Origin: Phytophthora colocasiae
Lineage: Eukaryota > Oomycota > Peronosporomycetes > Peronosporales > Peronosporaceae
Length of the DNA stretch: 64,000 nucleotides
Assembly: GCA_018806915.1 (NCBI GenBank)
Contig: JAGKQI010000096.1
Span: 1,426,001 to 1,490,000, forward strand
Direction: 5' to 3'
Positions 16,244 through 64,000 of the stretch are shown one piece after another. The position numbers and the translations under genes were made by a program. The notes under the pieces were generated by a model. That model searched no databases and was not told where the DNA came from. It was given only the letters and a program-made list of their open reading frames with translations. The stretch's first letter is position 1, and every line of letters starts with the position of its first letter.

Positions 16244-17007
16244 CGGAGCCTTTTGTGAGGAATCGTACGTCAGCTGAGCGGCTCTTGCACCGCAATAGCC
16301 GTATAGCCTTTGAAATATAATATTTGATGAGGATCCAATGACACATTTTTAATCGCTATCATAAACTGGAAGTGCTGGTGACGGGCTTGCAACCTTTGTT
16401 TGCTGCACTAGCTAATCATGCTGCTGTAGTAAATCGTAGCAGCAGTACATGTATACCGATCTGGCAGAGTAGTGCTGCTGCTAGTGGCCTGCTGCCCCTG
16501 CTGGCTGTGTCTGAAGGATCCCTTTCTAAATTTATCACCTTCAACGACTAATGCGATCTGCGGCGATGGGGACTTTTGAACGGTATCCAAAGCTTGTCCA
16601 GACCAACGTGTCCCAACTGCTGACTGCGACTGTTAAATCCCTGTCCGAAAGCGCTGGACGCGAGCTCGCCACGCACGGAAACGGAGGAAATAGAAACACG
16701 CGCGTTGTGTCGCTGAGCTTGCTAGCTTGCATGCACACACACCGCCAAGCTCGCCACGGCGCCGAGGACAAAGGTCCCCCACGCGGATCGCGCTCCCTCG
16801 TTTTACAGAAAAACGCGCCGTTTTGGTCCACGTCAATTGCTACACTTGGTTTCACTATGACCGCATTTTTCTTCAACACGAATGGGTTCGTGTGACAAAG
16901 CCTTGTCACTAAGCTCGTATTGATTGCACACGAGTGGGTGGGTTTCATCCCTATCTATACCCAAGCGAGCCAAACCAAGCAGCCAAGCTACAGTGAATGC
17001 CCCCCAC
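16244..17007. promoter_or_regulatory. Divergent promoter region between the two aldolase genes
   Basis: About 760 bp of sequence is unique to the spacer, flanked by the inverted arms, with a gene pointing away on each side. The two halves are not copies of each other, so the genes share coding and 3' sequence but have different upstream DNA. Short open frames here show no motifs. Confidence 0.6.
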
Positions 17008-35109: not shown

Positions 35110-35172
35110 ACCACCGTAGCTTAATGGTAAAGCCCCGAAAGGGGTGAAGGAGGTTCGATTCCTCTCGGTGGT
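35110..35172 (+). ncRNA. tRNA-like cloverleaf with a GAAA tetraloop in place of the anticodon loop
   Basis: A 63-nt stretch inside the MULE has a perfect 7-bp acceptor stem (ACCACCG with CGGTGGT), a D-arm (GCTT...AAGC around AATGGTA) and a 5-bp T-arm with loop TTCGATT. Where a 17-nt anticodon arm belongs there is only CCC-GAAA-GGG. It therefore cannot decode, and is a tRNA-derived pseudogene or a tRNA mimic carried by the transposon. Expression is unknown. Confidence 0.6.
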
Positions 35173-35234
35173 ATTGTGTTATCGAACAGATTTGTGAATG
35201 TGACGCGTATTATATGAAGGAATTCCATATCAGC

Positions 35235-37380
35235 CTAATTCAATCCGGAATAGCCCCATGTACGAGGTGGCAAGTACGCACTGGTGAAGCTTTCATGTGT
35301 ACCTTCTTGCAGAAGCGCCTGAAATGATTGAACCGGTGGAGTATTGGAATTGGAACTGTTGTCTCTCTCGAACCACGATAATTCGCGACGTGTGGTATTG
35401 GCGCCGTGCCCAGCCTTGTGTTGACAATGCGAACTGCCCCTGCTTTTATGGTTGCGCCGGTTTGAAGGCTCCAAAACGCGACAGGTTGAATGCTCATCGT
35501 TTGCTAGTATCCACCAGTGCTTGTCGAAGTGTGTTGGCAGAATCTTTAAATCTCCGTTGGACTCGTAAATGTTTACTAGCTCGTGGATACATGGTCTACC
35601 GTACGTGTGGCGAAAAACTCCGGTACATAGTGATTTTTCGGCTCCAGAAATTATTAGATTGTGCGCCATCTTCCAGAGCTTGTCCGTCTCGATTAGCGCA
35701 TAGGTACTGATCAAGCGAACCACAGCAGAATTTTGGTCGTATCTAAGTCGGTGTGGAATAATAGTAGCATCTTTGGCTGACTGGTAGCTGATAGCATTTG
35801 CAGAGGATATCCACCACGGAAGTAGCTTCAGAAACACAGTGAGAAGATCTCCTTTTGAACTTTCCAACCATCTTTTAATCTTCGCATGCGTGCCTTCCAC
35901 CGTAGACGTGTCATGGCATCCAAAGTGCGCGTACTTGTCCGTCCAGCACTTCACGATCTTCGTTTTGTATCTCCACCAGGTACGTTCCAAATAGAGCGCC
36001 AACGTATTGCTTAAAGCTCGCAAGGCAACGCAATGTGCGTCAAAATCTGCTTCCGTCTTTGATTCTAGTGTTTCGTAATATTCAGCCATGAAAACATTGG
36101 TCTGCACAGTGTTTGTTTTCGTCTCTCCATTTGGCCCAGGTTGATCGAGTCGTACAGTTCCTAGTTCACCTTGAACACGCGCCAATACGTTGCGGTTAAT
36201 GTGCCAGCGACAAAGAATTTTGGGGACGTCTGGGAAAACCATATCACTGGCGTTCATACAGGCAAGATCCCTGTCCGTAGCGAACAGTCGGGGTTCAGGG
36301 ATTCCAACCTCCTTTAGAAGTGTCTTCAATGATTCGAATGCCTATGTATAGTTCGGCTCAGCCTCCCCGGGTAGCCAACATTGAACTAGCGGAAGCACCT
36401 TATTCAGTCCAGTAAGGATGACCATGTTTAATAAGGGCCAGTTGTGCTTATTAGTCTTGTATGTGCAATCCAACACAACGACACCCATTAAGTGTCGAGA
36501 TAGCTCCAATGTTTGCGGGTGCGCCCACAACAGGTACATTAACCGAGGGTTGGAGTCCGACTCAATCTCATATTTGTAGCGAAATCCATGGTCACTCAAC
36601 TGTCGAAATAAAACCTCAATCGCAGTGTCCGTTTCCAGCATCTCGCGCCGCCACACATCCTTAGCGTTTGCAATGTCCTTAGGTATAGCAAGTGATTTCG
36701 TGTTCGCAAGTAATAGAGTTGAATAAATTCGTGACACAGGAATTCCAGCTTCAGTTTGGAGAGTTATCAACTCGTTCGCACTTGAAATCGCATGACCACA
36801 ATTTTGTTGAACGCTACGTCGCCTATGTCCAGTGTGTACTCGAACATCCAAAGAAGGCGGGTGGTTGTGGGTTCGACTTCCATCTCGTGTGTACACAATT
36901 TTCATGCCCCGCCGTGTTGTTGCGATCTATAGCCACAATTTTAATGTGCATGGGGCAACCCATTCGTTTTGACCCTCGCAATGTTCTGACACGATCCTCC
37001 TCACGAATACGGCGAGTATTCTTGGGTCTTCCACTACGATCACAGGCAAATAAAATTGTCCGAATTTCGTTATTGTTGTTGCGTTCGATCTTTTGCCTGG
37101 ATACGTCATAGCGACGAGATTGGGTCCACCTGTGTATTGCGTCAATAGCTGCATCTACAGAAGGATGAACACCTTCTGGAGGTGGTTCGATGGTATAAAG
37201 CTGCGATACCTCTGCGGTGTAGTCATCCGGATAATTGAGGGCTTCAGCGTGATTCTGCATGGTGTTCCTTGCTCTTAGTGTTGTACAGGTATTGCTCGCG
37301 TCAGGTTGGAAATTGTTCTCTGTTCTAGTTGATGTTCTCTCTAATGTTAAAGTAATAATAGATTCGAAGACGATCACCAT
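35235..37380 (-). pseudogene. MULE transposase (FAR1-like N-terminus), frameshifted and with a nonsense codon
   Basis: Three pieces follow each other on the minus strand. 37380-36823 carries the FAR1/WRKY-like DNA-binding part (GCPMHIKIVAIDR). The frame then shifts into 36905-36342, which holds the rest of that domain and the start of the MULE catalytic domain (GVVVLDCTYKTNKHNWPLL). An in-frame TAG near 36340 separates it from 36329-35235 (LFATDRDLACM, CRWHINRNV, and a degenerate SWIM-like CIHEL). The DDE aspartates in LDCTYKTN and ATDRDLA are visible. One frameshift and one stop make it non-autonomous now. Confidence 0.9.
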
Positions 37381-38328: not shown

Positions 38329-41300
38329 ATGGACGTGGGCACCAACGTGTGGGTTAAGACCAAGGACGCTGCTGTCTGGGCGGCAGGCGAGGTGGTTGAC
38401 TACCAGGATGCGGGTGGCCTCGTGCACGTGCGTCGTTTCGACACGGGCGACGTCATCATGCGTAAGTGCTTTTAAACACAAGCCTAACCAGTAAGGCGTC
38501 TCTTCACTGACAATCGCTTATTTGCCACTTTAGGTCGCTACCCGGGACCTGACAACGAGTTGTGTCTGCGCAACATGTCAGCCAATTTCCCTACTATGTC
38601 GAGTCTTACCAGTCTGGAACATCTTCATGAAGCTGCGTTGCTACAGGCGCTAAGCGAGCGCTTCGATCATGACCAGATCTACACTTCCATTGGGGACATT
38701 CTCGTAGCCTTGAACCCGTTAAAACCACTGCCACAACTGTACTCGGAAGCGCAATTAAACGCGTACAAACAGGTGATGACAAACCCCAGTGCTTCAGTGA
38801 AGGAAGAGTTGCCGCCACACGTGTATGCAATTGGTGGTAAAGCTTTCGGAGGATTGTTGAAGCCGGAACGACGTAATCAGAGCATCTTGGTCAGTGGAGA
38901 GAGTGGCAGTGGCAAAACCGAGAGCACCAAGTTCCTTATGCAGTTTTTGACCAGTGTGGGCAGAGATCAGTCACTGACAGAACAGGAAGGAAGTGGCGCC
39001 GTGGAAATCGGCAGGCGTATCCTGCAAACAAACCCGATTTTGGAATCTTTCGGCAACGCACAGACGATCAGGAACGACAATTCAAGTCGCTTTGGCAAAT
39101 TTATCAAGATCCAGTTTGGTGAGAAGAATGAGATTGTTGGAGCACAGATTGTAAGCTATTTGCTGGAGAAGGTGCGGCTGCTGCACCAGAACCCAGAGGA
39201 ACGCAGTTTCCACATTTTCTATGAGCTGCTCGAAGGAGCAGACAAGGGGCTGCTAGACACTCTGGGACTTCAGAAAGGAGGCAAATACGAGCTGCTCAAC
39301 TCGTATGGGCCCAGTTTTGCACGGAAACGAGCGGTGGCAGATAAGTATGCGCAGTTGTACGTGGAAACAGTTCGAGCGTTCGAGGATACGGGTGTGGGCG
39401 AGCAAGAACGGCTGGATATTTTCAAGATTCTAGCAGCGTTGCTGCACCTTGGAAATGTAAACTTTACCGCTGCTGGCGGACAAGAAGATGCTACTGCTGT
39501 TACAAAAGCTTCTCGCTTTCATTTGGAAAAGTGTGCTGAGCTCATTGGTGTGGATGTGGACAAGCTTGAAAAGTTGCTGAGTAGCCGGGAGATTAAGGCT
39601 GGTATGGACGTTATGGTGCTCAAGCATAATCCGGAGCAGGCGAAGGAAATCTGCCGATCACTTGCTAAGGCTATCTACGGTCGTCTCTTTACTTGGCTTG
39701 TACGTCGTCTAAGTGACGAAATCAATTATTGCGACTCGGCCATTTCAATCTCGGACGAAGACGAAGAAATGGCTACTATCGGTATTTTGGATATCTTCGG
39801 CTTCGAGAGCTTGAACCGCAATGGATTCGAGCAGCTCTGCATCAACTACGCCAACGAACGACTTCAAGCACAATTCAACGAGTTTGTATTTGTGCGCGAG
39901 CAGCAGGTATACATTGCAGAGGGGATTGACTGGAGGAATATCTCGTACCCTAGCAACGCAGCGTGCTTGGCTCTGTTCGATGACAAAAGCAACGGTCTGT
40001 TTTCGTTACTGGATCAGGAATGTTTGATGCCGAAGGGCTCAAATCAAGCTTTAAGCACCAAGTTTTACCGTTACCATGGCGCGGAGGGTTCTCCAGACTC
40101 GGCCGGCTTGCTTCAGCAACCACAACTTGCTCAGAATACTTTGCCACTGTTCATGTCATCTTTCAGTCGGTATTTGCACCGAAGTGAGTCTCAAGAAGAA
40201 GCTGTGCGCCAAGATACAAAGAAGCATCCGTTCTCGGCGTCCAAGATGGAGCGCGTGAAACACCAGTTCGTGGTCCACCACTTTGCTGGCCGTGTATGCT
40301 ACAATGTGGAGCAGTTTGTTGAGAAGAACACGGACGCTTTACCTGCCGACGCAAGTGACATCCTATCATCTTCGAATAATGAAGTGGTGGTGGCTATTGG
40401 TGCTGATGAGAATGTTGACTCGCCCGATGACAACGGAACAGCTGGACGGAGACGTTACTCGATGCTGCGTGCACCTAGCGTGTCAGCGCAGTTCAAAAGT
40501 CAGCTAGACCGGCTTATTGTTCAAATTGGACGTACCGAAGCCCACTATGTTCGCTGTCTGAAGCCCAACGAGGTGAAGAAGCCTGGCATTTTCGACCGCG
40601 AGCGTATGGTAGAGCAAATGCGCTCTGTAGGTGTACTGGAGGCGGTTCGCATTGCGCGTCATGGATACTCTATTCGTCTCTCACACGCGAACTTTACAGA
40701 GCTGTTTTCTGGGTTTAAGTGTTTCTTGAGCACTCGAGAGCGAACAACGAAGATGTCCAACCATGACTTAGCCCAGGCATTAGTAACTGTTTTGATGGAC
40801 AAGGTGCTCCTGGAAGACGGCGTGGAGCGCGAAGAGAAGAACCCTGGCGCTATTACTGCTGTTACTGATGATGGCACGGGCACAGCATTCGAGAATGACA
40901 TCCGCCGTAAGGACGTGCAGGTGGGCAAGACACTCGTGTTTTGTAAATCTAGCACTTACAATCGGTTCTCTCGCTATCGCGTGGAGTTGCGGAATCATTG
41001 CGCGACTGTGCTGCAGAAGCATTACCATGGATATCGCCGGCGAGTATTGTATCAAGAGTTGCGCAATTTCGTGGTGCATGTTCAAGCAATTGTCCGAGGA
41101 TTCCTCGGTAGAAGGCGAGTCGACAAGTTGCGCCAGTTACGATGCGAAAATGCTGCCACTCATATCCAGTCGTATTGGAAACGCTTTGTGACCCAACGGA
41201 AGTTTGCTGAGCTGCTGAAACACAAGCGGCAGGTTGAGGCTGCCACCATGATTCAGACTTGTTTTAGGTGTTTTGTGGCACGGCGGATTCTTTTGGGAAT

Positions 41301-43239
41301 GCTGAAGACCAAGCGCCAGGTTGCTGCGGCTATTCGTATTCAGTCACACTCCAGGCGTTGGCTAGCACAGCGGAAACGTGCAGAACTCCGTAAGCGGAAG
41401 CTCCAGAATGCTGCTGCCGTTTGCATTCAAACAAATTACAGGTGTTGGCTGGCACAACTGCAGCTTGCGCGACTTCGTGAGCACAAAATGCGGATTGTTG
41501 CCGTTGTTCGTATTCAGACGCAAACCAGGCGTTTACTGGCCCAGCGGGAGCGTGCGAAGCTTCTACGTCATAGACTTGAAATGGTTACAGCAGTTCGAAT
41601 CCAAGCTCAGTGCAGACGTTGGTTGGCCCAGCGAAAACGAGAGCAGTTGGTACAGGAAAAACATGAGCTTGCTGCTGCTGTCACTATCCAGAGGCAGAGC
41701 AGGCGATGGCTCCACCAAAACAGCTTTATATCGGCGAAGCTGCACCGTTTCCGCTTACGTGTTGCGTTTGGCAAGCTCCGCCGTGCGTGCCAAGCTTCAC
41801 AGGCAGCAAGCGAAATGGAAGCTGAGCCTTCTCCGAGCGACGATTCGTCGGCTAGCCGAGCAAAGCAAATGCCTAAATCGATTGGTCTCCTGTCGACCCA
41901 GTCGAGCTCGGAGCAGGAAGACAGTTCCAACAGTGATGATCGGATGGAGCCCCCCATTCGTATTTCTGCCCCCACCCACCGGCGCACCATGAGCAGACAG
42001 CGTACTCGGACTAATAGCCGACAACGCAGCCGTGCAAGTAGCAGCCATATCGAAGATCGCAACTCATTGCTGGAGAACGAAATCTTGCGTTTACAGCAGA
42101 TGCTCGTTGAGCAGCAGAGCGGCAACAGTGCCAGTCCTTTACGGGATCAACGACGTCGATCCTCAACGGTTGCTCGTCCGCCTCGAAGCGCTCCACTTGA
42201 CCTAAGCCAGTCAACCCGTGTCACACGTTCACGCTCCGGCCGTCGTCGGTACTCAGTCGATGGCGCTTTATCCGAAGATGAGGACGGAGAGAATGACGCC
42301 GAGGTGTCATTGTTACCTCCACGTCGTGCGCGCAGCGTCGTGCCTGCTCAACAAGCTGATCATGTTTCCATGCTGTCGCAAAAGATCGAGGAGCTGGACG
42401 CGAAGTGCAAGTTCCTGGAACAGCTCGTGGCTCGCAAGAACTATGAAGATGCGGCTAGAGAGTCCTTTATCTACGGTCGGGGGTCGCTTGGCGGCAGGGA
42501 GCGTTTACCTTCTGGAGATGGTTCGTTGTACGGAGACGTCCCTCCAAGTGAAGCAGGCTCGGACGTGGACTCGATCATCTTCAACATTCAGAACCAGATG
42601 GACATGCTGCGTCAGTCTATCGCGGTGAAGGAACAGGTCCTTCAGACGTCTCGCAAGTCTCATGGGCTGTCGTTCTCATCCAGCACCCGGCCGACACGGT
42701 CTTCATCCGCTGCATCGACCACATCGTTCTCGAACCCGTTCGGTGAGGCTCCTCCGAGTCTTCCATCACTTCCGCTGTCCGAATCGCAGCTTTCAGCTGG
42801 CGGGTCGTCGCATGGTAATGGCCGACGCAGTGGCGGAAGTTCGCTTGGGCTCCCTCCGACGCCGACTTCCTCAATAGCGTCGTCGTTTTACCAGGGACCA
42901 CCACGTTCTTCACCCGCACATTTCGGAGGTCGAGGCATGCCCCGCATCGTCAAGTGGGCACGTTCTACCAACTGCTACGAGTGCGAGGAGCCGTTCAACC
43001 TGTTTGTGCGACGTCACCACTGCCGCATGTGTGGCAATTCGTTCTGCCATGAGCATTCCAGTCGTCGCGTATCGGTCTTCGGCATCGGATTTGACGATGA
43101 GCCCGTTCGAGTGTGTGATAACTGTTTTGCCGAGTATTATGCAGCATCGCAGGAGCCACTCACGCCCCAATACACCAGCTCCCAGTTCGGCTTCAACTCC
43201 GGGCCAATGTCCTCGTCTTCGCGGCTCAGCGGATTGTAG
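38329..43239 (+). CDS. Unconventional myosin with six IQ motifs and a C-terminal FYVE finger, 2 exons
   Basis: Exon 1 38329-38461 and exon 2 38534-43239 give 1,612 residues. Exon 1 codes for the SH3-like N-terminal barrel. The motor domain (about 55-850) has the P-loop GESGSGKT at 166-173, switch 1 NDNSSRFGK and switch 2 DIFGFESL. About six IQ motifs follow (about 866-1107; IQ..RRWLAQRK type), then a short coiled coil (about 1230 and again 1310-1330) and serine-rich linkers. A FYVE zinc finger lies at about 1516-1583 with RRHHCRMCG, although the WxxD part reads WARS. FYVE domains bind PI3P on endosomes, so this motor probably carries or tethers endosomes on actin. Myosin-FYVE fusions are known from oomycetes. 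Splicing was chosen because it restores the N-terminal domain in frame. Confidence 0.95.
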
Positions 43240-47652: not shown

Positions 47653-50221
47653 GCTGCACCCACCTCATGCACATGGGACGGGACAGGCCAGATTTACGAC
47701 GCCCAACGGTTGGGCGTCGGTTGGGCCCCAACCAGCACCCACCTGCACCCAATCGTGACCGTCGGACACCCTTCTCGCACCCACTAGTGCACCCAAGTCG
47801 AAAGAGCCGGCGCAAAAATTATACAATATACACGTATATCCGGAAGATACCAAAGAGCCGGAGCGACAGCATCAGCTCTGGAGGCCAAAGCGCGGGAAGT
47901 ATTCTGCTGGGCTTCTCTTTCAATTTCTAAAAGACATTATCAAGCATATAACTCAACAAACATAGTTCGATGCAACATCTTCATTGACTTAGTTGCTGCT
48001 TCTCCTTACTTTCATGAAAACGGCCAATTAGCTGCTACTGCTACTGCTACTGCTATTTCTTTCTTCGTTCATACACATGCGCAAGTAGCGGTAGCGCATG
48101 CATTGCAGAGTCTTCTTGTCGAGGTGACCGAGCGGCTCTGACCCACAGAATATCTCGAACGCCAGCAGTACGTACACACCACAGTTGTAGCTGTCGCTCT
48201 GGATGCCAAGGCCAGGATCGTGGGTCACCAAGCGAACGCTGGGTCTGACACTTTCTGGTATCATCGGGATCATCTGCTGTGTCACGGCACGGATACTGAT
48301 AGCATAGGAGGACGCCATCGAGTCGTAGACGTACACTCTGCCCTTCTCCAGATTCATCAGCACACCACACCAGTGGTTGTTGTTGCAGTTGACTGGAAAG
48401 AGTACTTTCATTTCCTTCGTGACCCCAGCCAACGCCCGTTTGAAATGCCCGCTGTCCGTCGTAATAGCTCCATTTGAAATTCCCAGGTTGGACGGGTCAA
48501 TCACTCGAACACCAGGCTCCGCTCCGAACAATTTGTGTAGGATCATCTGCATGACTTGGGCGCTAAGGGTTTCCTTCGCAGCCAGATCCACCATGTCTGC
48601 ATATTCGTTAGACATAACTGGCAATCCTGCAAGCAGCGTAGGTATAGCTGGGTCCTCCTCGACGTAGAAACTAGAGTTCCCGTAGCGTGTGAAGTCTAGC
48701 CGATCAATCCAAGTGAGTGCTCTTTTGGTCTTCTTAATGAATTTTACTGCGGTGTGCCACTTTCGCATGAGAGCTATTGTAGAGTTCGCGAACACTCCAA
48801 CACCAACGATCTCCAGAGCCAGCTGCATCTCCAACGTTCCTGGTTTTTTCGCTTGGTAGGCCGTGACTGCGGAGGTGCACTTGTTGAGGAATTGCATGGG
48901 AAAGATTCGCACTACCTCTTCTGGTCGCATAAGAGGTTTTGTGGGGAGCAGTTTGGTAATCTCATGGGCGATGGGGGCCTTCGGCTTGTTTGCGAACATA
49001 AACTCCTTGAACCGTAGCAGCTTGTCATGTGTCGAGTTGTAGGTGGGCTTATCATCCAGTAGTTCGTAAACAGTCAGTAGATTCATTTGGCGCTCGTGCA
49101 TGACCAAATTGTGAATGTCCTGGCTCGTTGGGTTGCAGCTGGAATTCTTGTGGATGAACTGCAGAATGCGTTTCTTCTTGGCCCCGGCTTTGACAAGCTC
49201 GCTAACAGTCCCCGCTAGCTCAGGCTCGATAGCTGTCCGGTTGTGGGGATAATGGTCGAATGTATGTCTAGAAAGGGAATGATTGTGCTCCAAACGGGCA
49301 GCAGTAATTCGCAGCACAAACGTAGGAATAGCCGCCGCCGAATCAGCCACTTGCACGCATGCATTGATCTAGAAAACAATACAAATTGTACGTGAGCTTA
49401 TATAAGACCAACAACTGTATTTTGTTCGAGCCCAACAGAGCCCAATCAAACCCAACTGAACCCAACTAAACCCAACTGAGCTCCACATACCTGCACGTCG
49501 CACTCAAGGGCTCTCGACTCTTGCCGCTTTCTCTTGCCTTGTCCACGCGGCTTGTATTTCCCTGCGTGCGTACAGACGAACGTCTTGGAGTAGTGAACCC
49601 ACTCCTCGGGCACAAGCGGCTTCGTAGACCCGGAGTCTCGAATTTTGTTGTTTCTGGATGCGACTTTGTTATTAGTGCGAATGCGGAAGCTCTGCACGCA
49701 GTAGTGGAATGAAAAAAAGAAGTTAGGACCTGCAAAAGCGATTCAGGTGTAATGTTAGGTACAACAAACGTTACCTGGTATGTCTCGGCTGAATAGGATT
49801 TCAGATACACGTCGAATGCGCCCCATGAATCAAATTCTGTCTTCTCGGGTGGCGGCGCAATAACCGCTCTCTGTTCGACGTTCTGCGTTGCCCGAAGGCG
49901 ATCAGAAGCACCCGAGCGACGCTTCTTCGACGTGGAGCTGGCAGTACTTGACGACTCCGCCGACGATTCGACCCACTCCTCATCACTGTCCACCGTCTCC
50001 TCCCCGTCACTCTGGTCCCCTTGTCGTGGCGGTCGCACCACCGCTTTGACGCGCAGGTCGGGCGTCATGGCTTCTTGGTTGCTGATTTTCCCCCGCTGCA
50101 AAAATGAGTGGGGGGGAAGAAATATACCGCTATACGTCGACGTATATCCGCAAGACGGATACGAGTTTGAAGGGTTAGGGAAAAAAGGAGTCCCGTCCCA
50201 TGTGCACGAGGTGGGTGCAGC
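47653..50221 (-). mobile_element. Candidate transposon: C48 protease gene between 32-bp inverted repeats
   Basis: 47653-47684 (GCTGCACCCACCTC...) is the reverse complement of 50190-50221 with one mismatch in 32. The only gene between them codes for a protein with a Ulp1-like protease domain and a FAR1-like N-terminus, a combination known from MULE-type elements. No target duplication is visible next to the repeats, so the true ends may lie slightly further out. Confidence 0.65.
48028..50068 (-). CDS. Transposon-associated protein with Ulp1-like (C48) cysteine protease domain, 3 exons
   Basis: Exons 50068-49775, 49691-49491 and 49368-48028 join in frame to 611 residues. Residues about 60-190 are a FAR1-like zinc-binding region spread over all three exons (ETYQSFRIRT, CTHAGKYKPRG, ECDVQ, LEHNHSLSRHTF). 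The C-terminal 180 residues carry the C48 triad: His in CNNNHWCGV, Asp in VYVYDSM, and Gln and Cys in QSDSYNCGVYV. The protease is thus intact at its active site. The protein ends in eight serines coded by an AGC/AGT repeat. An Inr-like CTCATTTTTGCA lies about 35 bp upstream of the ATG. Introns are 83 and 122 nt; the second contains a degenerate 10-bp repeat (CCCAACTGAA type, 49430-49480). The frame is intact, so the gene may be active or recently mobile. Confidence 0.8.
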
Positions 50222-51027: not shown

Positions 51028-54000
51028 TCACTCGGGTTTACCTTCCTGTATCTCAGGCACGACAGGAGAGTGTTCGAGTAGATAAGCCCCATCGTCCTTG
51101 TTCTCCGGAGTCATCAGCGACACAGCCACAGTCACGACGGGGGGAATGATGAGCGTCACGATGAAAGTGATCATGCTGTTTTGCGAGTACAGACCCTCCG
51201 GCAGGACGAACCAGTTGAACCCTCCGACGAATTTCCCCTGGGCGATCACGCCGTAGACGAAGACCGTAAGGAATCCAGCAGCGTTACCAGCCAAAACACC
51301 AGTACGTGTAGCAGGTTTCCAGATTCCAAGGAGCATCGGACCCACTGCAATGGTACACAGTAGATCAGCGATGAGATAGAGAGTCATTATATCGTACTCC
51401 TGGTAGCCGATCGCAATGGCCGGTGCATTGAGAACCACTACAGCACAACAAAAACAATCAGTTAGATTGTCACGTGTTCTGTAATCGAACGGAGTCTTGT
51501 AGAGGACTTGAGATTGATAAAGAAAATTGAAGACTGAGATTAATATGTAAGGAATGAAAGCCACAGCTAGTCGTTACCTAAGCTTCAGGAGGAGAGAGTT
51601 TCCTGTCCTTGTCGTCCGTTGCAAAACGAACGCAGCATCAGCGTTAGTTTCAAAGAACCTGGTTTCATCTGTGAAAACTTTGAATGACGATGCATCATCG
51701 TCACAGTTCCCCCTGTAGACGAGCGGTAGCACGAGTTTTGGGTAGAGTGTCGAGATAACGACGTACAAGTCCCACCACTTGGGTTAAGTGGTCGAGGGGC
51801 TCCCACGATGGTTTAATTGCCGAATCTTGCCACCGCACGAGATATTCTGTTTGTCTCTTGCGCTTGCGGTGCTTAGTTATCGCTGAAACTAGGTGCCCAA
51901 CTGCACCGTCACGTGTTAGCAGTGGTTGAACGCGGTTGGCTCGGCTTGGAGATAGATCTTTGAAGTATTTCCGAAGCATTGAGACGTGAAATTCGGGAAA
52001 AAGCCGAAGTCCTGGTGGCAACTTGAGCTTGTATCGGTCGGGACCTGTAATAGCTGTAACTCGATAAGGCCCAATAAACCTGGCGGCAAACTTCCTTGCA
52101 CCATCAGTTCCGAGGTGATCCAGGTCTAAGTTCCGTGTGTTTAATAGTACGTCATCTCCGATTTGGTAGACTGTATGGAGTCGATTTTTGTCGTAGTTCC
52201 GCTGCCAGTTAGCTTGTGCTGCTGCAATCGCGTCACAGGCTTCACTGAGAATGGCCCTTTGATGCTCCAGAAATGTAGTAGCCGCTCGTGATGATGTAGT
52301 TGGCCTCGGTAGAACGCAGTCGGATACAGAGCGCGGTTGGTATCCCAAATCTGCCACGAATGGCGACATGCCGATTGACTCGTGAACTCGCGAGTTATAG
52401 GCAAATTCTGCGAGCGGTAGCAGCTCGTTCCAATCCGTTTGATGAGGATTTATAAAGTGCCGGATGTACTCAGCTAGCACCTTGTTGGTAACTTCGGATT
52501 GGCCGTCCGTTGATGGTTTAAAGGCAGTACTGAGATGAAGCCTCGTACCTTGCAGGTTCATGATACTTTTCCACAAGTTGGCAGTGAATTTTACATCTCG
52601 GTCAGACACGATCGAAGACGGCAATCCATGGAGTCGTTGGTAGAAGTCGCGGAAAAGTACAGCTGTCTGCTTGGTGGTAGCATTAGAGGTTGTCGGGATA
52701 AAGTGTGCTCGTTTTGTAAGGCGATCGACCATGACCATAATTGCGTCAAACCCGTTGTCTGTGCGTGGAAGCTTTGTCATAAAGTCCATACTGATGTCGC
52801 TCCATCAACGATCTGGAATCTCCAGCGGATGAAGATGTCCAGTGGGCTTTCCTCGTACATATTTATTTCGTTGGCAAAGCTCACAGCTTTCCACGTACGA
52901 ACGGACGGAAGTCACCATACTTGGCCAGTAGTATTTGGATGCAACGAGTAGTTGTGTCTTGGCTTGACCTGGGTGACCCCGAGTTGGCGTGTCATGTTCC
53001 TCGTGTAGAATCGCATTTCGCAAGGCTGTGTTAGCTGGTACACACAGACGTGCTGGCGCTCCAGGTCGAATTTTGAAGAAAAGCAAGTCATCCAAAAGTT
53101 CAAAACGCTGGAATTGGTGCTGACGAGGGACATCACTCTTGAAAAAGCGCCAAATTGGACCGAATTATTTGTCTGAGTCGTACAAGCGCTTGCACTCTGT
53201 TGCAATATCGGTCAATGAAGATGTTGACAGGGCCAAAAGGGTTTCTTCTTCAGTAGATTCTTGAGTCGTCAGGGATTTTAACAGGGATGAGAGGCTGATT
53301 GATCTGCTGGTACCGTCATTCCAGTTTGGATTTCGCGATAACGTATCAGCTACGATGTTTGTCGCTCCTGCTACCCACTTAAATTGAGGTTGAAACAAGG
53401 CAAGCTCATTGAGCCACCGCGCCAACCGCTGGGAACAGGTTTGCTGCTGAAGTATCGTCTCGATTGTTCGATGGTCCGTATTTATGAAGAACGGGCGATC
53501 AATGAGGTACACTTTCCATGTCCTCATAGCATGAAGAGCAGCCAGCAGCTCTTTTTCTCTCGTTGGATAAATTAGTTCCGCACGAGAAAGCTTTCGGCCA
53601 GTAAATGCGATTACACGCTCATATCCAGAGTCATCATACTGAAAGAGATATCCACCTATCGCGAAATCAGAAGCATCCATGCTGACGTGAAAAGGTTTAG
53701 AAAAATCTGGGTGAGCTAGCATCGGTGGGGATGACAATTTGCGCTTAAGTTCTTCAAATGCTTGTTGTTCGCGCTCTCCAAAGTTGATTGGATCTCGTCG
53801 ATTCTTCCCTTTAGTGAGTTCTGTCAACGGCGCGATCAAATCACCAAATCCATCGCAGAACTTCATCACGTAGACACATGTACCTAGGAACGATTGAAGC
53901 TCTTGCTTTGTCCGTGGTGTTGGCCAGCTCCTGATAACGTCAATCTTGCTGGGATCCATCCGGACGCCGTCTCTGCCCACAAAGTCGCCGAGACAAGGGT

Positions 54001-57000
54001 TTTTTGTGGAGCAAAATGTACATTTCTCGATCTTGACGAATAGCTGCTGCTCTTCACACCGCGTCAGCACCTTCTCTAAAGCCACCAGGTGCTCCTCAAT
54101 TGAGTCGGAAGGAGTGAAGACGAATAAGTCGTCAAAATAAGTTTGGCAGCAGAAATTTAGGTCTGAGAAAATGGCTTGAACCAGTCGATTGAAGGAAGAC
54201 GGACTACTTGAAACGCCCATCGGAGTAACTAAGTATTCAAATAAACCGTCAGGCGTTGCAAATGCCGTGAAAGGTATAGATTCTTCGGTAAGTTTTACCT
54301 GGAAAAATCCCCAAAGTAAGTCCATCGCGGAGAAGAGTCGTCCTTTAGCCATTGCACGCAGAATATCATCTTTACGCGGTATTGGGTTTGCTGGAACTCT
54401 AATTTTCGTGTTCAATCCACGGAAGTCGTGAACAATTCTCCATTCACCACTGCTTTTCTTCACACAAAAGGTGGGAGCACAGTAGGGTGAACTAGAGGGC
54501 CGGATCATTTTAGCCGCCAGCATTTCAGCAGTCCATGCGCGAATTGCCTCGCGTTGTTCGGCTGAGATAGGGAATTGTTTCCGGTGAATCGGAACATCAT
54601 CTGTGAGCTCAATCTTGCATCCATTCCATCTTTCCGCGTAGGTGGGACAGCTGGAAGGTGCGAACGAAAAACTTTATCGCGATACTTGCATAGTAATGGG
54701 TAGGCAGGTGATGTTTTTAGCTTTTCCCATGCTTGATCGGCTTTGGTGATTCCTTCACATGGGTTTACAAAGAAGAAAAATTCGTTGTCGCGTTCACGAA
54801 GAAGTCGATTAAGATTTCGTGTTCGCACAATTCTTGTAGTTCCCACGGACGAGTGGTGGCCATGTTGTATATAGTAATGAAGGAGTACGTCCTCATCTGA
54901 TTGGTCCTGTTGCTGTGCACTGCCACGGCGCCGTCCAGCAATAATTCTAGCTGGAGGAACAGGAACACACGGACGAAAGGGAAGACTTGGTGTTTGTTGG
55001 TTACGTGGTCGGACTGACTTGAGCTTCCAGTCAATATCAGGATTTGTATCCACTAGCCATGGTATGCCAAGTAAAATGTCCTTGCCTTCGGGAATATCCA
55101 ATATAAATGCCTTGGAGCGATATGTAGAAAATCCATCTAGTGCAAAGTTGAGATCTACTACTCGTCTCGGAATAACCGAAGTGGTTCCGGTTCCTAAACG
55201 AATTAGTAGAGGTTTGGAGTACTCTTGCACTGGTACGTGCAGAGACTCCACGAAACGTGGTGACACCGCGTTGAACGAAGCACCGCTGTCGATGAAAGCG
55301 GATACAGGATCATTGTTCCAATGGCCCCGTTGCTCCAGGTAGCCATAAATGTTGTCGTTGGTCGGCCTTCTAACCGCTTCGTCAGTACTATAATTGAAGA
55401 TCTGCGAGGTGATTGGAGGTTGACCCGTGGCTTGACGGCTTGCAGTCGTATGGCAGGCGGCTGCAGCGTCAGACTCGGTGGGGCGCCAGCCCACCGAGTT
55501 ACCTAGTTTTTTTGTTTACCAGCACCGCCCTGCTGCCGATCAGGGCAGGCAGGGGCGATGTGACCTTCCACACCACATGAATGACATGTGGGTACAAAAC
55601 CTGGCGTCTTGACTGAACTAGTTCTTGAGGCAGGTTTGCCTTTTCGGATATTTGACTTGACCGAATTTGTACCAGTCGTAGTTGAAGTTGGTACTGAAGT
55701 TGAAGTTGACCCCGAAACCTTCTGATTCTGATTCTGAATCTGATTCTGCCTAAACTTTGAAGGCTTGCGGGCATCCTCGAAGCGTTGAGCGTGATCAATA
55801 GTTTCTTGTAAAGTCAAAGGAATATTTTGCGAGATGTGACTGGACGTGTCTGCACGCAAATTCTGTTGGTACAGCCAGCGCTTCACCATTTCTGGCAATT
55901 CCAGGGACGATTGAGAAAGAAGCAGCATGAACTTGGAGGTATACTCATGTTGTGTGCCAGAAACTTGTAGATCATGTAGTTTCGAGAGTAGTTTAAACTC
56001 GAAATCACTTTCGCGAAAGCGCACGCGAATCTGTTGTTTGAAGAGGAACCAGGTACGAGGTTGGTCTCCAACGATGTTCTTAAACTCTCTGTACCATGAC
56101 ATCGCGTCTGGTCCCAGAAAAGGGACCACCATATCGACGAATCGTGAGTCACAGCTGTCCCGCTCTCGGGCATAGCTGCTCAGGTGCTCTTCTATGGCGA
56201 ACAGCCACAGCTCCAAATCTTCACCGGCCCGTCCATGGAATTTAGGGGGCTCGGCTTTGTGCTTTTGGCGAGCAACACGAGATTGTTGCTCGAACATCTC
56301 GCGCTGGAATGTAATCTGTTGCTCCATGAAAGCTTGGAATTGTTGCTGTTGCAACTGCATGGCCTGCTGCTGCACTGCCATCATGTGCAGCACTTGACCC
56401 ATCACACCATCATTAGACCCCGACCCAGGCTGTGGCATAGCTGGTTGGGGAGCTTGTGGAGGTGGTGGAGGAGGGGAGGTTGCACCCGGCGCTGGTGTTG
56501 CCGGTGTGCTTGATTTGTTTGGTTGGGGCAGCCCAGAGGACGACGCGTGGTCCATCCCTTCGTCGTCGGTGCGTGGATGCTGACGAGGTCTCAAATTTGG
56601 TGATGTTTCCTCAGCAGCACGCGGAGTCTTGGGTCGCTGCATGTACGGTATCGTACTTAGCCGGGTATATTCGGTAGTTGCCTCAAATACGGTCGAACAG
56701 AGTTTTCACTCTAATTTCGAAATTGTCACGTGTTCTGTAATCGAACGGAGTCTTGTAGAGGACTTGAGATTGATAAAGACAATTGAAGACTGAGATTAAT
56801 ATGTAAGGAATGAAAGCCACAGCTAGTCGTTACCTAAGCTGCAGGAGGAGAGAGTTTCCTGTCCTTGTCGTCCGTTGCAAAACGAACGCAGCATCAGCGT
56901 TAGTTTCAAAGATCCTGGTTTCATCTGTGAAAACTTTGAATGACGATGCATCATCGTCACATAGATACAACTACAAGACAAGTGGCACAAAGTACTTACT

Positions 57001-58082
57001 GCAAATGATGCGAGCTTGCAGTAGTGTGAGCTTCGGGAAGCACGTCGTGAGCTCAGCAGCGATTCCAATTTGAAGCGAGTCAGACACTCCACTGGATAGC
57101 ATGGCGATGACGATGATGATAAGCACTTGCCAGCCACGGCCCATATCAATCAGGATCGCGAAGAATAGGCTACCTTCCGGATAGGCCAAGTATGAGACCA
57201 AACCTGCCATTGCCAGCGCTACCGTGAAGAAACAAAGGATCACTGCAGCCAAAAACGCAGCCTTGTGAAGGGTACGGTCGTCATAAGCAGCATACACTCG
57301 CTGCCAAAAGCCGGTGAAGAAGAGGTTCGATGCCGTTACGGCAATCACCAGCGTCACTAACGTCTCGAAGCCTACCGTCGTGAAAGCAGCCACATTCGTT
57401 CTCGACCACTCCCCGTCCGGAATGGACACGTGAAAGAACATGGCGATGCACACTAGGAAGACCAGAGTCACAACTCCGATGCCTTGCCACACATCCGTCG
57501 CCAAACTGGCACGTAACCCACCAATAGTAAGATAGAGGTTGGTGAGGAAAGCCACAAGTAGAATGGTGATGATCGGGTGTGCGTTGGGGGACATCATTGT
57601 CGTAAGTTGTGCGACGCAAGTGTACTCGGACGCCAGACAGATGAACTGGTAGAACACTGAGATGCACCCGATGTACAGCCTCATGACGTAGCCAAACCGA
57701 CGAGAAACCACGTCTGTCATTGTGGCATTTTCACCCACCACAGAGCGGATGTAGGGGCCAACGAGGGCTAACACTGCCATTCCAGTGATGCTTGAAAGGG
57801 AGTAACCAATGATACCCCAAGACCCTGCGCTCACACCAATTTCCGGGAACGTGAAGAGTGATCCAGCTCCAATTCCAGCAGAGAAGAAACACCACGCTAG
57901 ACGCAGGGTAGTTGTTGAGTTCTTGGCACTAAAGTTGACAATAGGCATAAGATATTGTTTCACATTGACTCAATAGTACTGAGGCAATAGTCTCACCTGA
58001 CGAAGTTCTTGACCGAATTGATGTCAATGTGCCGACTGATAGTGATGGCGTAGACTGCCACAGCGACGAGTGTGGCGGCCAT
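51028..58082 (-). CDS. Sodium:solute symporter (SSS family), TPP-riboswitch-controlled, probable thiamine transporter; last intron holds a retrotransposon
   Basis: Coding exons 58082-57997, 57928-57000 and 51437-51028 join in frame to 474 residues with about 12 hydrophobic segments. LAWCFFSAGIGAGSLFTFPE and GPYIRSVVG, then GVSDSLQIGIAAE and VLNAPAIAI...LYLIADLLC, match the sodium:solute symporter family (DUR3-like branch). The join at the large intron makes codon ATG from A+TG and continues the conserved transmembrane segment. The start at 58082 is the first in-frame ATG with a good context (GTGATGG), but the first helix would be short, so an upstream start through a missed exon is possible. 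A TPP aptamer lies 186 bp upstream on the same strand, which suggests transport of thiamine or a precursor. The insertion left all exons and both splice sites intact. Confidence 0.88.
51468..51705 (-). repeat. 3' LTR
   Basis: 238 bp; pol ends on a TGA three bases inside it. Confidence 0.97.
51701..55502 (-). pseudogene. Retrotransposon Pol (protease, RT, RNase H, integrase, chromodomain), broken
   Basis: Frame 55494-54505 holds the retropepsin (IDSGASFNAVS). A frameshift of one base near 54,620 moves into 54523-53165, which has the RT (YFDDLFVF catalytic motif, PMGVSSSPSSFNRL) and RNase H (SMDASDFAIGG). An in-frame TAA (53165-53167) and a TGA just before 52789 interrupt the integrase: the zinc-binding part is in 53095-52805 and the DDE core (SDRDVKF) and C-terminal chromodomain (TEYLVRWQDSAIKPSWEP) are in 52789-51701. 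The chromodomain places it among chromoviruses. Three lesions mean it cannot make full Pol now. Confidence 0.93.
55473..55512 (-). promoter_or_regulatory. -1 programmed ribosomal frameshift signal (gag-pol)
   Basis: On the minus strand the heptamer A-AAA-AAC (55512-55506) sits in the gag frame immediately before the gag stop codon. Six nucleotides later a perfect 10-bp stem (ACTCGGTGGG at 55499-55490 pairing with 55482-55473, 7-nt loop) follows. A -1 slip reads straight into the protease frame. Slip site, spacer and stem are the three standard parts of a -1 signal. Confidence 0.85.
55503..56642 (-). CDS. Retrotransposon Gag
   Basis: 379 residues, intact. A proline- and glutamine-rich N-terminus is followed by a capsid-like helical region (about 120-260; WLFAIEEHL, WYREFKN, FRESDFEF) and a zinc knuckle CHSCGVEGHIAPAC (CCHC) near the C-terminus. 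It packages the element RNA. The frame ends at a TAG directly after a slippery A-stretch. Confidence 0.95.
   Translation of the reverse strand: MQRPKTPRAAEETSPNLRPRQHPRTDDEGMDHASSSGLPQPNKSSTPATPAPGATSPPPPPPQAPQPAMPQPGSGSNDGVMGQVLHMMAVQQQAMQLQQQQFQAFMEQQITFQREMFEQQSRVARQKHKAEPPKFHGRAGEDLELWLFAIEEHLSSYARERDSCDSRFVDMVVPFLGPDAMSWYREFKNIVGDQPRTWFLFKQQIRVRFRESDFEFKLLSKLHDLQVSGTQHEYTSKFMLLLSQSSLELPEMVKRWLYQQNLRADTSSHISQNIPLTLQETIDHAQRFEDARKPSKFRQNQIQNQNQKVSGSTSTSVPTSTTTGTNSVKSNIRKGKPASRTSSVKTPGFVPTCHSCGVEGHIAPACPDRQQGGAGKQKN
56724..56961 (-). repeat. 5' LTR
   Basis: 238 bp, three substitutions from the 3' LTR. Confidence 0.97.
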
Positions 58083-58122
58083 CACGCCGTAGGTAACTCC
58101 ATTGGCCAGTATCTTGACGAAA

Positions 58123-58190
58123 CTTTACAAAAATATTGTACAATATGTTAGGATAGACATCAGGTTTTAGAAAACCTACTTGAAACTTAC
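58123..58190 (-). other. Probable 5' UTR intron between riboswitch and start codon
   Basis: A GTAAGT donor at 58190, a CTAAC branch-point-like motif and an AG at 58123 define a 68-nt intron between the TPP aptamer and the coding start. It contains an ATG followed by a short frame ending in TAA, so keeping it in the mRNA would add an upstream ORF. Confidence 0.55.
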
Positions 58191-58267
58191 CCGGGTGTCT
58201 TGATTCTAGAGACGAATAAGGCAACGCGAAAGGAGACACAAGCAACGTCAACAACAACAACAAGTTA

Positions 58268-58371
58268 CAGCAGTCCCTCCGCCGGTGCGAACCGGATCAG
58301 GTTCTAAGGGTATCATCTCAGCCGGTCAGCACATGGAACTGGTCCATGACTGGCATCGGCACCCCTCGCTG
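58268..58371 (-). promoter_or_regulatory. TPP (thiamine pyrophosphate) riboswitch, THI element
   Basis: The minus strand reads GGGGTGC, a P3 hairpin (CATGGA...TCCATG), GGCTGAGATGATACCC, GAACCTGATCCGG, the P5 loop, then CACCGGCGGAGGGA. These are the conserved TPP-binding core blocks in the correct order: CTGAGA in the pyrimidine sensor and the GATCC..GG..GGAGGGA half in the pyrophosphate sensor. P1 closes CAGCG (58371-58367) with TGCTG (58272-58268). L5 is CCGG-TTCGCA-CCGG. It is on the same strand as, and 186 bp upstream of, the symporter start codon. Confidence 0.97.
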
Positions 58372-58482
58372 ATTGAGTGTCAGTGGATTTCACACAGGAA
58401 GAGGACAATAATAACTAAAAAGTGGAAAATACACACAGTACCGAAATACCAACGCTTGAAGCACTTGAGCGACTTGAGAGAG

Positions 58483-60316: not shown

Positions 60317-63013
60317 TCACACATCTGAAGATGGTGCATTCTTCTTGACCTGCGTGACGTCTTCGACGTTCAATAGCTGCCTAAACTTCTGGAATTTGTT
60401 TGGTCCCAAAGCCTTTGTAAAAACGTCCGCAACGTTGTCAGCACTGGGCACGTATTCAACTTCAATCTTCTTCTTCTCCACGAGCTCAGCAATCTTGCTG
60501 CTCTTTTTAGCGTAACTCTTCATACGCTGGTAGTTGCCAGCTTCACTGATCACTGTCTGTGTACTTTGGTTGTCCACGTAAAGCACTGACGTGGGTGGTT
60601 TCTCTCCACGTATCTCCTTTAGCAACTTTCTGGACCATAGTAAGTCCTCAACGCAGCTATCCGCCGATATCAACTCCGAGCTACACGTCGCCGTAGTCAC
60701 TTTAGTCTGCATCTTGCTCTTGTAGACAAATGCATTTCCATTTAATTGTATGACATACCCACTGGCCGATCGATTTGTGTCCGGGTCATTCGCGTGATCC
60801 GCGTCACAGTACGCGTCCACACGTAACGGTAAAGTAGGTTCTTCACACCTGTATACCAATCCGTAGGTTCTAGTGCCCTTCAGATAGCGTAAAGTACGCA
60901 TCGCTCTTTTGTAGTCGTCCATCGTGTAAGAGCTCATGTACTTACTCAGTTGCCGCACTGCACATGCCAGGTCCGGCCTACTGCACGCCACCAAGTAGTT
61001 CAACGCACCAACCAGCTCTCGATACGGGATATTAGGATCATTAATCTTGTCTTCATCTCTTTCGAGAGGGGTAATCGGTTCATTTTGCTCTTGAGGTGAT
61101 CCCACAGATTTAGCGTTAGTCATGCCAAAGCGTTCTAACAGCCGATCGATATATGCCGTTTGCGAGATACAGAGATGATTGCATGGATCCAGTAATACTA
61201 CCATAGAAAGTAAATGGTGTACTCGTCCAAGATCTTTGAGTGCAAATTTTGCTGCTAATTCGTCGATACATTGATCAATGTCTGCTGTCTTTCCCGCAAA
61301 AACCAGATCATCAACGTACACCGTAATGTAGACAACTTTGCCTCCACGATGTCTCTGATAAAGCCCCACATCAAAAGCACATCTCTTGAATCCAAGTTGT
61401 AACAGGTACTTGTGCAGCGTATAGTACCACAAGCGCGATGCCTGTTTGAGGCCATAAATTCCTTTCAACAGCAAACAAACTCGGCCACTCCCATCATCAA
61501 AGTACTTCGGTTGTTCCATGTAGATAGTGAATCGCATGAGCTCCGAATTCAAAAACGCTGTTACAAAATCAACGTGCTTGCAGTCCAGTGACAGTAATAG
61601 AGCAAGTAGCAGTATCATCCTCACAGTCTCCATTCGAACCACCGGTGAGTAAGTTTTGCCATAGTCCACACCTTTCTTTTGCTTGCAGCCACGCACTGCC
61701 AGCCGCGCTTTCAGACGGTCAGCACGACCTCTCTCATCACGCTTCACTCTCAAAACCCAGATTGAGGTCAATATATTCACTAACATTCCGTCTTCCGGCT
61801 TCGGTCGCTCCACGAGCTTCCACGTGCCATTGAGCATGTGAGCATCGAACTCTTTCTGCATTGCTTCCATCCATTTGTCCTTGAGATCTGAACTCAAAGC
61901 CTCCTCAACACTGGATGGATTTCCATGCAATTGGTCCATTGTTTGTGCCATCACGTAGTCGTTCATGCGTACGTTGGGCTTCTTTTTCCTTGATGAGCGT
62001 CTTGGAGCTCTTGGTAGTGCTGTTTCAATAGGTGCAGGTGTAGGTGCTGGCGGCTTTTCTTCTTCACTGTCCACATCCTCTTCATTCGCCTCACCATTTA
62101 CCTCACCATCAGCTCCCACCGAAACAACATCATCCAAGGTTCCAAATGCCTCTGTCGAAGCTCCCACCGAAATTGTATCTGTGCCAGCTGTGCTTTTGCC
62201 AAACTTGTTATTTGGCTCAGCAACTGCTTTGGCTACGACACTATTCGCTTTATCACGTGTGACCGAAATTGTATCTGTGCCAGCTGTGCTTTTGCCAAAC
62301 TTCTTTTGCTTTCTTTGCAACTTGTTATTTGGCTCAGCAACTGCTTTGGCTACGACACTATTCGCTTTATCACGTGTGACCCGGTCCGCTACGTAAGTTA
62401 CTGGCAACGGGACAAATGGTATTTGGGCATAGTAGTGCTGTCGCCCCACCAGGAGCGCATTTACATATGTACCATCAACCGTGATGTCCTCGCGGAATTG
62501 TACGTCTCGTACTTCGATCATCTTGCCAGTCCTCAAGTGTAGCAACCGGTATCCGTGTTTTGACCGTGGATATCCAAGAAATAGAGCAGGTTCAGCCTTT
62601 GCTGATAATTTACTCTGCCGCTTCTCTTTCGGTACGTGAACAAACCCGACACAACCACAAACTTTTAACTGCTTCACATCCGGCTTCACACCAGTTAATT
62701 TCTCCACCGGCGTCATGCCATCCAACGCTTTGGTGGGACTCACATTGTCCACTTCCACAACGTATTGTATGACTTCGGGCCAGAGCTTCATCGGTAAGTT
62801 TGCCGCATACATGACAGCTCTCATCTTGTTAACGAGAACATCATTCAGTTTCTCCACCAAACAGTTCTCTTCCGGAGTATATGCGTGCGTAGGTATGAAC
62901 TGAATTCCCCTTTTCAAAAGGAAGTTCTTCAGTACTGCATTCACATACTCGCCGCCTCCATCACTCGTGAATCGGTGAATTCGCTTCCCTTGCGCTAACA
63001 ATTCAGTCAGCAA
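60317..63013 (-). pseudogene. Copia polyprotein, integrase core to RNase H
   Basis: 898 codons. Integrase catalytic part (SDGGGEYVN, AYTPEENCLVEKLN), a charged linker with a tandem duplication (62166-62378), RT with LKGIYGLKQASRLW and the YVDDLVFAG catalytic motif, and RNase H (DAYCDADHANDPDTNRSASGY). This part is itself uninterrupted; the start at 63013 is only the first start-like codon after the frameshift. Confidence 0.93.
62166..62378 (-). repeat. In-frame tandem duplication in the copia linker
   Basis: Unit 62166-62261 (96 bp) is repeated at 62262-62378 (117 bp), the second with 21 extra bases that add seven residues (LQRKQKK). Both stay in frame. Confidence 0.9.
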
Positions 63014-63035: not shown

Positions 63036-64000
63036 TCACTTTTTGTGACTTAGCGGGTAACACCACTTGTGACGTGAGCCTTCGTCAAGTATCAACTGGA
63101 AATACCGAGTCGAACCACTAACAGAGACATACTTGCGAATATCACAGACATCTGACATAATTCGCTCGAAATTGTGTTTCGTTCGCTTATCTCCAGGGTT
63201 CTTGTACGATTTCCTACGCTGTTTTCCAGTCATGCAGCTCAGGCAATTCAATTTGGTCTTCAAATGTTCGTGTGAGATATTCATCCCATTCACTGTCTGG
63301 TTTCTCATCATGAACTTCAAAGCTGCCTCATTGAGATGAGCAAACCTTTCATGCCAACGCATAAGAGGATTCGCATCCGCACTTACTGAAGACGCAATTA
63401 CTGCTGCTTGATATCCACCAAATTCTTCAGTGTTCAGCCAGTAATGCACTCCATGTTGCACGAATTCCAATTTCTGTTCGTCACGTTCAAGCCACATCTT
63501 CTGAGGCATTTCCGATGGTGCAGTGACAGTCAAACCCCATCCGTTCTTCTGCATTACTCCAAGAGAAATAATGTTCGTGGGTCCATGAGGCGAATATTCA
63601 ACACCATCCATAGTAAACGAGGTTTCATTACCACTTCTCGCATTTACTGCATGTACCAGCACTGATCCAGCAAATTCTCCCTTCGTCTTGTTGCCATTCC
63701 ACACAGTGAACACCGTCTTCGACTTATGAAAACTGGTGAACATGTCCTTCACAGTGCAAACATGAGTAGTTGCGCCATTATCTAGCATCCAATCCACTTG
63801 AGAGACGCTCCGGCTGTGCTTCAGTACCATTCCAACGAAACTCTCTGTGCTACAATCACTGCTCGAACTTGAATCACTCTTCTTCTGTACTTCAGTGACA
63901 AATCTCATGTAATTCATAGCACCAGAAGAATCTTCTTCAGAGTCATCGTTTTTCTTCTTCTTCTTGGCTTCTTTCTTCTCCTTTTGCGTCTTCTTGTCGC
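63036..64000 (-). pseudogene. Copia polyprotein, protease and integrase N-terminal part, partial
   Basis: The frame is open to the right edge, beginning with a lysine-rich stretch. It contains the protease motif LDNGATTHVCT, a GAG-pre-integrase domain (MRWHERFAHLNEAAL) and the zinc-binding H...C-x2-C (NCLSCMTGKQRR). It stops at 63036 inside the integrase core, where the continuation is in another frame, so one frameshift separates it from 63013. Confidence 0.9.

Follow-up and report, generated by a model that had tools for sequence, protein, structure and literature searches.

TPP aptamers in the 5' leaders of three sodium:solute symporter genes of Phytophthora colocasiae, a candidate thiamine-import system

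Introduction

Thiamine pyrophosphate (TPP) riboswitches on a group of sodium symporters have been described as widespread in oomycetes (Mukherjee et al. 2018, PMC5882874), and riboswitches of Phytophthora were reported already in 2014 by McRose et al. (PMC4260697). Related systems are found in other lineages. The SSSP/ThiV transporters of algae and bacteria belong to the same sodium:solute symporter (SSS) family, have a TPP aptamer beside the gene and take up thiamine or its precursor 4-amino-5-hydroxymethyl-2-methylpyrimidine (HMP) (PMC4260697, PMC9544697, PMC11452348), and the fungal transporter Dur31/NCU01977, for which thiamine is the substrate, is likewise a member of the SSS superfamily with a TPP riboswitch (Donovan et al. 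2018, PMC5997356). For oomycetes, a search conducted mostly outside the subscription literature found no published test of a thiamine transporter or of a riboswitch response. The locus compared with these systems here lies in a 64,000-nucleotide stretch of Phytophthora colocasiae (contig JAGKQI010000096.1, positions 1,426,001 to 1,490,000; in the following "the window", with positions counted from its first letter), in which an initial annotation had placed a TPP riboswitch in front of an SSS-type symporter gene. Our preferred reading, to which we assign a probability of roughly 0.55, is that this gene belongs to a set of three paralogous, ThiV/SSSP-like thiamine importers, each carrying in its 5' leader a TPP aptamer which would lower expression at high TPP by way of splice choice.

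TPP aptamers and their symporter genes

The proposal that the element is a TPP riboswitch aptamer, for which the initial annotation had suggested the Rfam covariance model as a check, is borne out by that model. In a cmscan search of the window, RF00059 was matched over its full length (model positions 1-105 of 105) at 58376-58256 on the minus strand with 65.2 bits (gathering score 54.3), and the E-value of 1.5e-10, which takes into account 64 kb of sequence on both strands and 4227 families, means that the match is not due to chance. All conserved blocks named previously are present in the model alignment, P3 contains a long additional hairpin, and the distance of 186 nt given earlier agrees with that from the end of P1 (58268) to the ATG at 58082. 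In the genome to which the window belongs (92.5 Mb, 105 contigs), two further matches were detected, both on contig C56.

58256..58376, minus strand: TPP aptamer (RF00059), P1 to P5 with a long P3 extension, by covariance model
C56:81199-81077, minus strand: TPP aptamer, second copy, 68.0 bits
C56:155531-155653, plus strand: TPP aptamer, third copy, 68.0 bits

A fourth aptamer was not found among the 49 of 3367 first-look candidates that were scored, so that the genome holds at least three. Each of the three SSS-family symporter paralogues found in the genome has the aptamer (3/3). Its core is the same, and unchanged, in all of them, whereas the leader around it has diverged. Identification as a TPP aptamer, made from sequence, rests on the covariance model together with this conservation among paralogues; the window aptamer would presumably bind TPP. 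One of the two paralogues on contig C56 (C56:80937-79421) is intact with 482 codons. The other (C56:155794 onward, locus L005) has its frame broken by a 10-nt deletion that is absent from the P. capsici counterpart P0016, and retains its aptamer at 68 bits. Between paralogues, the ratio of nonsynonymous to synonymous substitutions (dN/dS) amounts to 0.07-0.09, synonymous sites being close to saturation.

That the gene encodes an SSS-type symporter, as annotated initially, agrees with the SSS fold of the protein and with the match of the intact paralogue to PF00474 (34.1 bits, cut-off 22.8); the window protein itself gives no Pfam match at E<=1. Its assignment to an oomycete agrees with the nearest orthologue found, the P. 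capsici protein P0014, to which it is 95.7% identical (21 of 484 residues differ). A tree was built from 27 oomycete and 4 bacterial sequences. In it, the window copy is joined first by P0014 (100/100) and next by proteins of P. fragariae and P. palmivora (100/99); a sister group (98/97) contains the 156-kb paralogue of contig C56 together with P. capsici P0016, and the intact paralogue belongs to a third, weaker group (88/83). Hence, the symporter duplications seem to predate these Phytophthora species. Beyond this genome, the presence of the aptamer in oomycetes was examined through the N-termini of the fetched proteins, with a single case resulting: P0004, an annotated protein of P. megakarya, has its start within a translated TPP aptamer and continues into the symporter. 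This start is probably a gene-model artefact, and P0004 would be indirect evidence for a TPP aptamer in P. megakarya.

The nearest named relatives outside the oomycetes are bacterial, with about 35% identity. From 80 fetched bacterial loci, 20 were hand-picked to spread genera and scanned; 15 of these have a TPP aptamer at or just before the symporter gene, 13 above the gathering score and two more at E<1e-6 (L045 with 53.4 bits and L091 with 51.0 bits). The bacterial relatives thus stand under TPP aptamers in the way known from ThiV/SSSP genes. No TPP match at E<=0.01 was obtained in the other five loci, all from Marinobacter (L041, L070, L076, L082 and L089). Viral contigs searched with the P. 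capsici orthologue returned no match.

Thiamine economy and the likely substrate

The genome was searched exon by exon for thiamine biosynthesis genes, with control genomes that were all prokaryotic, a design which an intron-rich gene could escape. Within this scope, NMT1, ThiC and thiamine monophosphate (TMP) synthase gave no match, the TMP synthase search being positive in 11 of 14 control genomes. Full-length THI4 was not found either. Six partial matches, four of them over the cut-off, cover 32-48 of 235 positions within larger frames; we take them to represent a shared cofactor-binding motif rather than THI4. Thiamine pyrophosphokinase is clearly present (E 3.4e-33). The organism therefore seems unable to make thiamine, and import of ready-made thiamine or its phosphates is the most economical role for the symporter. 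Consistent with this, searches in P. sojae and P. infestans were reported to have detected THI80 but no homologues of THI4, THI5, THI6 and THI20, and Phytophthora species were described as requiring external thiamine (PMC10499793), as the initial annotation had supposed for many oomycetes. In the same work, growth of three Phytophthora strains was supported by thiamine, TMP or TPP, but not by HMP or the thiazole precursor 4-methyl-5-(2-hydroxyethyl)thiazole (HET). The earlier suggestion that the symporter takes up "thiamine or a precursor" can accordingly be narrowed to thiamine or its phosphates, which are most likely its substrate. For folate carriers (PF01770) there was no match in the genome, but the control genomes were silent too, which makes this result uninformative.

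Leader layout and proposed working

All three leaders follow one layout, in which the aptamer is succeeded by a predicted intron of 62-68 nt in the 5' untranslated region (5'UTR) and by a start position about 260 nt from the aptamer start. Counted from the latter, the donor lies at +183 to +190 and the acceptor at +248 to +252, with the start position 7-12 nt after the acceptor. The initial annotation had set the aptamer in front of the symporter gene; the pairing of the two holds, with a predicted GT-AG intron (58190-58123) now added between them.

58437..58442, minus strand: GGTACT word common to the three leaders, candidate distal splice donor (GT at 58441)
58318..58356, minus strand: upstream open reading frame (ORF) in aptamer P3, 12 codons
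58248..58316, minus strand: upstream ORF starting in the aptamer and ending past it, 22 codons
58123..58190, minus strand: predicted 5'UTR intron, 68 nt, GTAAGT...AG; the corresponding introns of the paralogues measure 62 and 64 nt

The proximal donor reads GTAAGT in two leaders and GTACAA in one. GGTACT, which had already been noticed in the leader alignment before its significance was assessed, stands 61-68 nt before the aptamer in 3/3 leaders, and an equally long shared word arose in 4 of 1000 single-base shuffles. Inside the window aptamer there are three more upstream ATGs.

With these elements a mode of control can be outlined, of which the direction and the donor choice are what we infer. 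Plentiful TPP would act through the aptamer in the 5' leader to lower symporter expression. At low TPP, the distal GGTACT donor, some 65 nt ahead of the aptamer, would be joined to the acceptor that closely precedes the start position; the aptamer would thereby be lost along with the upstream ATGs, and the transporter would be made. Once TPP is bound, the proximal donor would be used instead, the aptamer and three or four upstream ATGs would be kept in the mRNA, and the main frame would be poorly translated. In a bolder version, which we consider rather doubtful, the aptamer would be an optional leader piece throughout the three-gene thiamine-import set, donors about 65 nt before and about 75 nt after it competing for one acceptor and TPP deciding whether the sensor is retained. 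If true, this competing-donor layout would seem to fall outside the four fungal types distinguished in PMC5882874, and the window copy would represent a sensor retained on a gene altered by a retroelement and a start-codon change.

Gene structure of the window copy

According to the initial annotation, the gene starts at the ATG at 58082 and ends near 57000. The present analysis leads to a longer gene.

57997..58112, minus strand: first coding exon; orthologue start position 58112-58110 reads ATA, next in-frame ATG at 58082-58080
57000..57928, minus strand: second coding exon of the SSS-type symporter
51438..56999, minus strand: last intron, 5562 nt, GTAAGT...AG, enlarged by a long terminal repeat (LTR) element
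51468..56961, minus strand: Ty3-type LTR element, 5.5 kb, in the sense orientation of the gene
51028..51437, minus strand: last coding exon, TGA stop at 51030-51028

There is an ATG at 58082, as stated earlier, yet it falls within the first predicted helix of the symporter, and the start of the orthologues lies ten codons before it, at 58112. Met occupies this position in 27 relatives, out of 32 that were aligned and 29 that have any residue there, whereas the window copy has ATA. The end near 57000 had to be abandoned, the last coding exon (51437-51028) being located beyond the LTR element; a short intron occupies the same place in the 156-kb paralogue.

The element in the last intron looks complete. 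Its LTRs (56961-56724 and 51705-51468) measure 238 bp each with 3 differences, and a 5-bp target duplication, ATCTA, is found at 56966-56962 and 51467-51463. RVT_1, RT_RNaseH, RT_RNaseH_2 and SH3_Tf2-1 exceed their Pfam cut-offs, and matches to an integrase core and a Ty3 capsid stay below theirs; with paired LTRs, target duplication, reverse transcriptase and RNase H, the insert has the features of a Ty3/Gypsy element. The genome contains 11 matches to the LTR at 96-100%, the element's own two included, which makes the LTR family a young one of small size. Another retroelement, of the Copia type (RVT_2, Pol_BBD, gag_pre-integrs), extends over 60317-62824 and 63036-63917 on the upstream side of the symporter gene, both on the minus strand; the gene is thus flanked and invaded by retroelements. 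As a separate observation, the Peronospora effusa protein P0042 matches the symporter in its C-terminal half and has precomputed Pfam domains of a retroelement RNase H, which may reflect a further insertion within the same gene family.

In the window copy, an intact aptamer is joined to an altered gene. With ATA at the start position and its last intron occupied by a young LTR element, this gene probably has a reduced or changed output, and most of the function is probably left to the intact paralogue on contig C56. Whether the window copy is a dying pseudogene, with an aptamer that no longer matters, is nearly an even question, with the odds slightly below one half, and such a fate would be compatible with the preferred explanation for the family. 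Besides the ATA codon and the sense-orientation insert, an out-of-frame ATG with a six-codon frame ahead of the in-frame ATG at 58082 points in this direction. However, 484 codons are still open, and donor, acceptor and a CTAAC motif, which we take to be a branch-like site, survive around the insert. Additionally, the branch leading to the window copy, at 0.017, falls short of the 0.038 measured for the P. capsici orthologue and gives no sign of long decay.

Alternative explanations

Several results weigh against TPP-controlled thiamine importers with splice choice, or lend them no support. For the transporter itself, these are the missing Pfam match of the window protein mentioned above and the presence of NCS1-type transporters (PF02133) at two loci, which could also carry thiamine. 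Regarding the RNA, free-energy folding of the aptamer stretch was uninformative, with a z-score of -0.39 and 68 of 200 shuffles folding equally well or better, and RNAalifold recorded compensatory changes in 0 of 38 pairs among the three paralogues, three sequences being too few for this purpose, and 2 pairs broken in one sequence. The number of upstream ATGs is that expected for the length, with no enrichment, and the leader at 81 kb of contig C56 has four more beyond the distal site, on its upstream side, which speaks against splice choice if transcription begins that far out. Base pairing of the proximal donor with the aptamer was equalled or bettered by 72%, 76% and 15% of shuffles in the three leaders, and that of the distal site ranked 163, 42 and 14 of 300; conserved donor-aptamer pairing is thus unsupported for both candidate donors. 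Finally, in the diatom Phaeodactylum tricornutum, where thiamine uptake requires SSSP, the putative aptamers do not function as riboswitches (PMC9544697).

Control might also be exerted by the bound aptamer and the upstream ATGs hindering both scanning and translation, the 5'UTR intron being constitutive, which we regard as somewhat unlikely. The well-formed proximal donors and the constant intron length do look constitutive, pairing tests favoured neither donor, and a type IV that works without splicing has been put forward by Mukherjee et al. for genes with a single exon (PMC5882874). The occurrence of GGTACT in all three leaders argues against it, as does splicing being the mode demonstrated in fungi (PMC5882874).

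An aptamer that is a relic with no switching left would correspond to the situation in the diatom, where the putative aptamers fail to work as riboswitches (PMC9544697), and is improbable here: its core has remained unchanged beside diverged flanking leaders, the covariance scores of 65-68 bits are well above the cut-off, and the P. megakarya protein P0004 begins in a translated aptamer. About as improbable is HMP or an unrelated solute as substrate, for although SAR11 ThiV is the likely HMP transporter (PMC11452348) and the SSS family handles a wide range of solutes, the exon-by-exon search yielded no TMP synthase to make use of the precursor, HMP and HET failed to restore growth in three Phytophthora strains (PMC10499793), and the diatom homologue is required for thiamine uptake (PMC9544697).

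Other features of the window

Two genes for class II fructose-bisphosphate aldolase (PF01116), at 15100-16269 (minus) and 16924-18150 (plus), are oppositely oriented and situated inside an inverted repeat of about 1.34 kb and 99% identity. A tRNA match of 47.9 bits at 35110-35173 (plus) adjoins a Mutator-like element (MULE) transposase frame at 35235-36341 (minus). A long frame at 38488-43239 (plus) combines a myosin head with IQ motifs and a FYVE zinc finger, and a frame at 48028-49368 (minus) contains a Ulp1-type protease domain (Peptidase_C48), possibly from a mobile element.

Comparison with known systems

The pairing of TPP aptamer and symporter gene in oomycetes is already published, the oomycete sodium-symporter group of PMC5882874 showing a TPP aptamer on a symporter gene. 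What the present analysis contributes is the set of paralogues, the common layout of their leaders, bacterial relatives whose aptamer occupies the same place, and the changes in the window copy. While the oomycete group was termed unique to oomycetes in that study, its relatives of about 35% identity in bacteria were found here, 15 of 20 with an aptamer. Judged by sequence, the aptamer-marked symporter family would be the best candidate for thiamine uptake found in Phytophthora, and the layout common to three paralogues opens the splicing question to existing RNA sequencing data.

In the diatom SSSP genes, aptamers are located in the 3'UTR and are non-switching (Llavero-Pasquina et al. 2022, PMC9544697), whereas the present aptamer is at the 5' side, before a 5'UTR intron. 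This intron also sets the locus apart from most marine algal SSSP genes, which have 5'UTR aptamers and a single exon. Fungal Dur31/NCU01977 represents the urea-transporter branch, and its TPP riboswitches are intronic (PMC5997356); an alpha element serves long-distance pairing in the fungal case. The proposed splice choice would act as an on-off decision resembling fungal Type I splice control in Neurospora (PMC5882874). Compared with the latter, the second candidate donor follows the aptamer here and conserved donor-aptamer pairing was not found; shared with it are two candidate donors, upstream ORFs and one acceptor just before the start.
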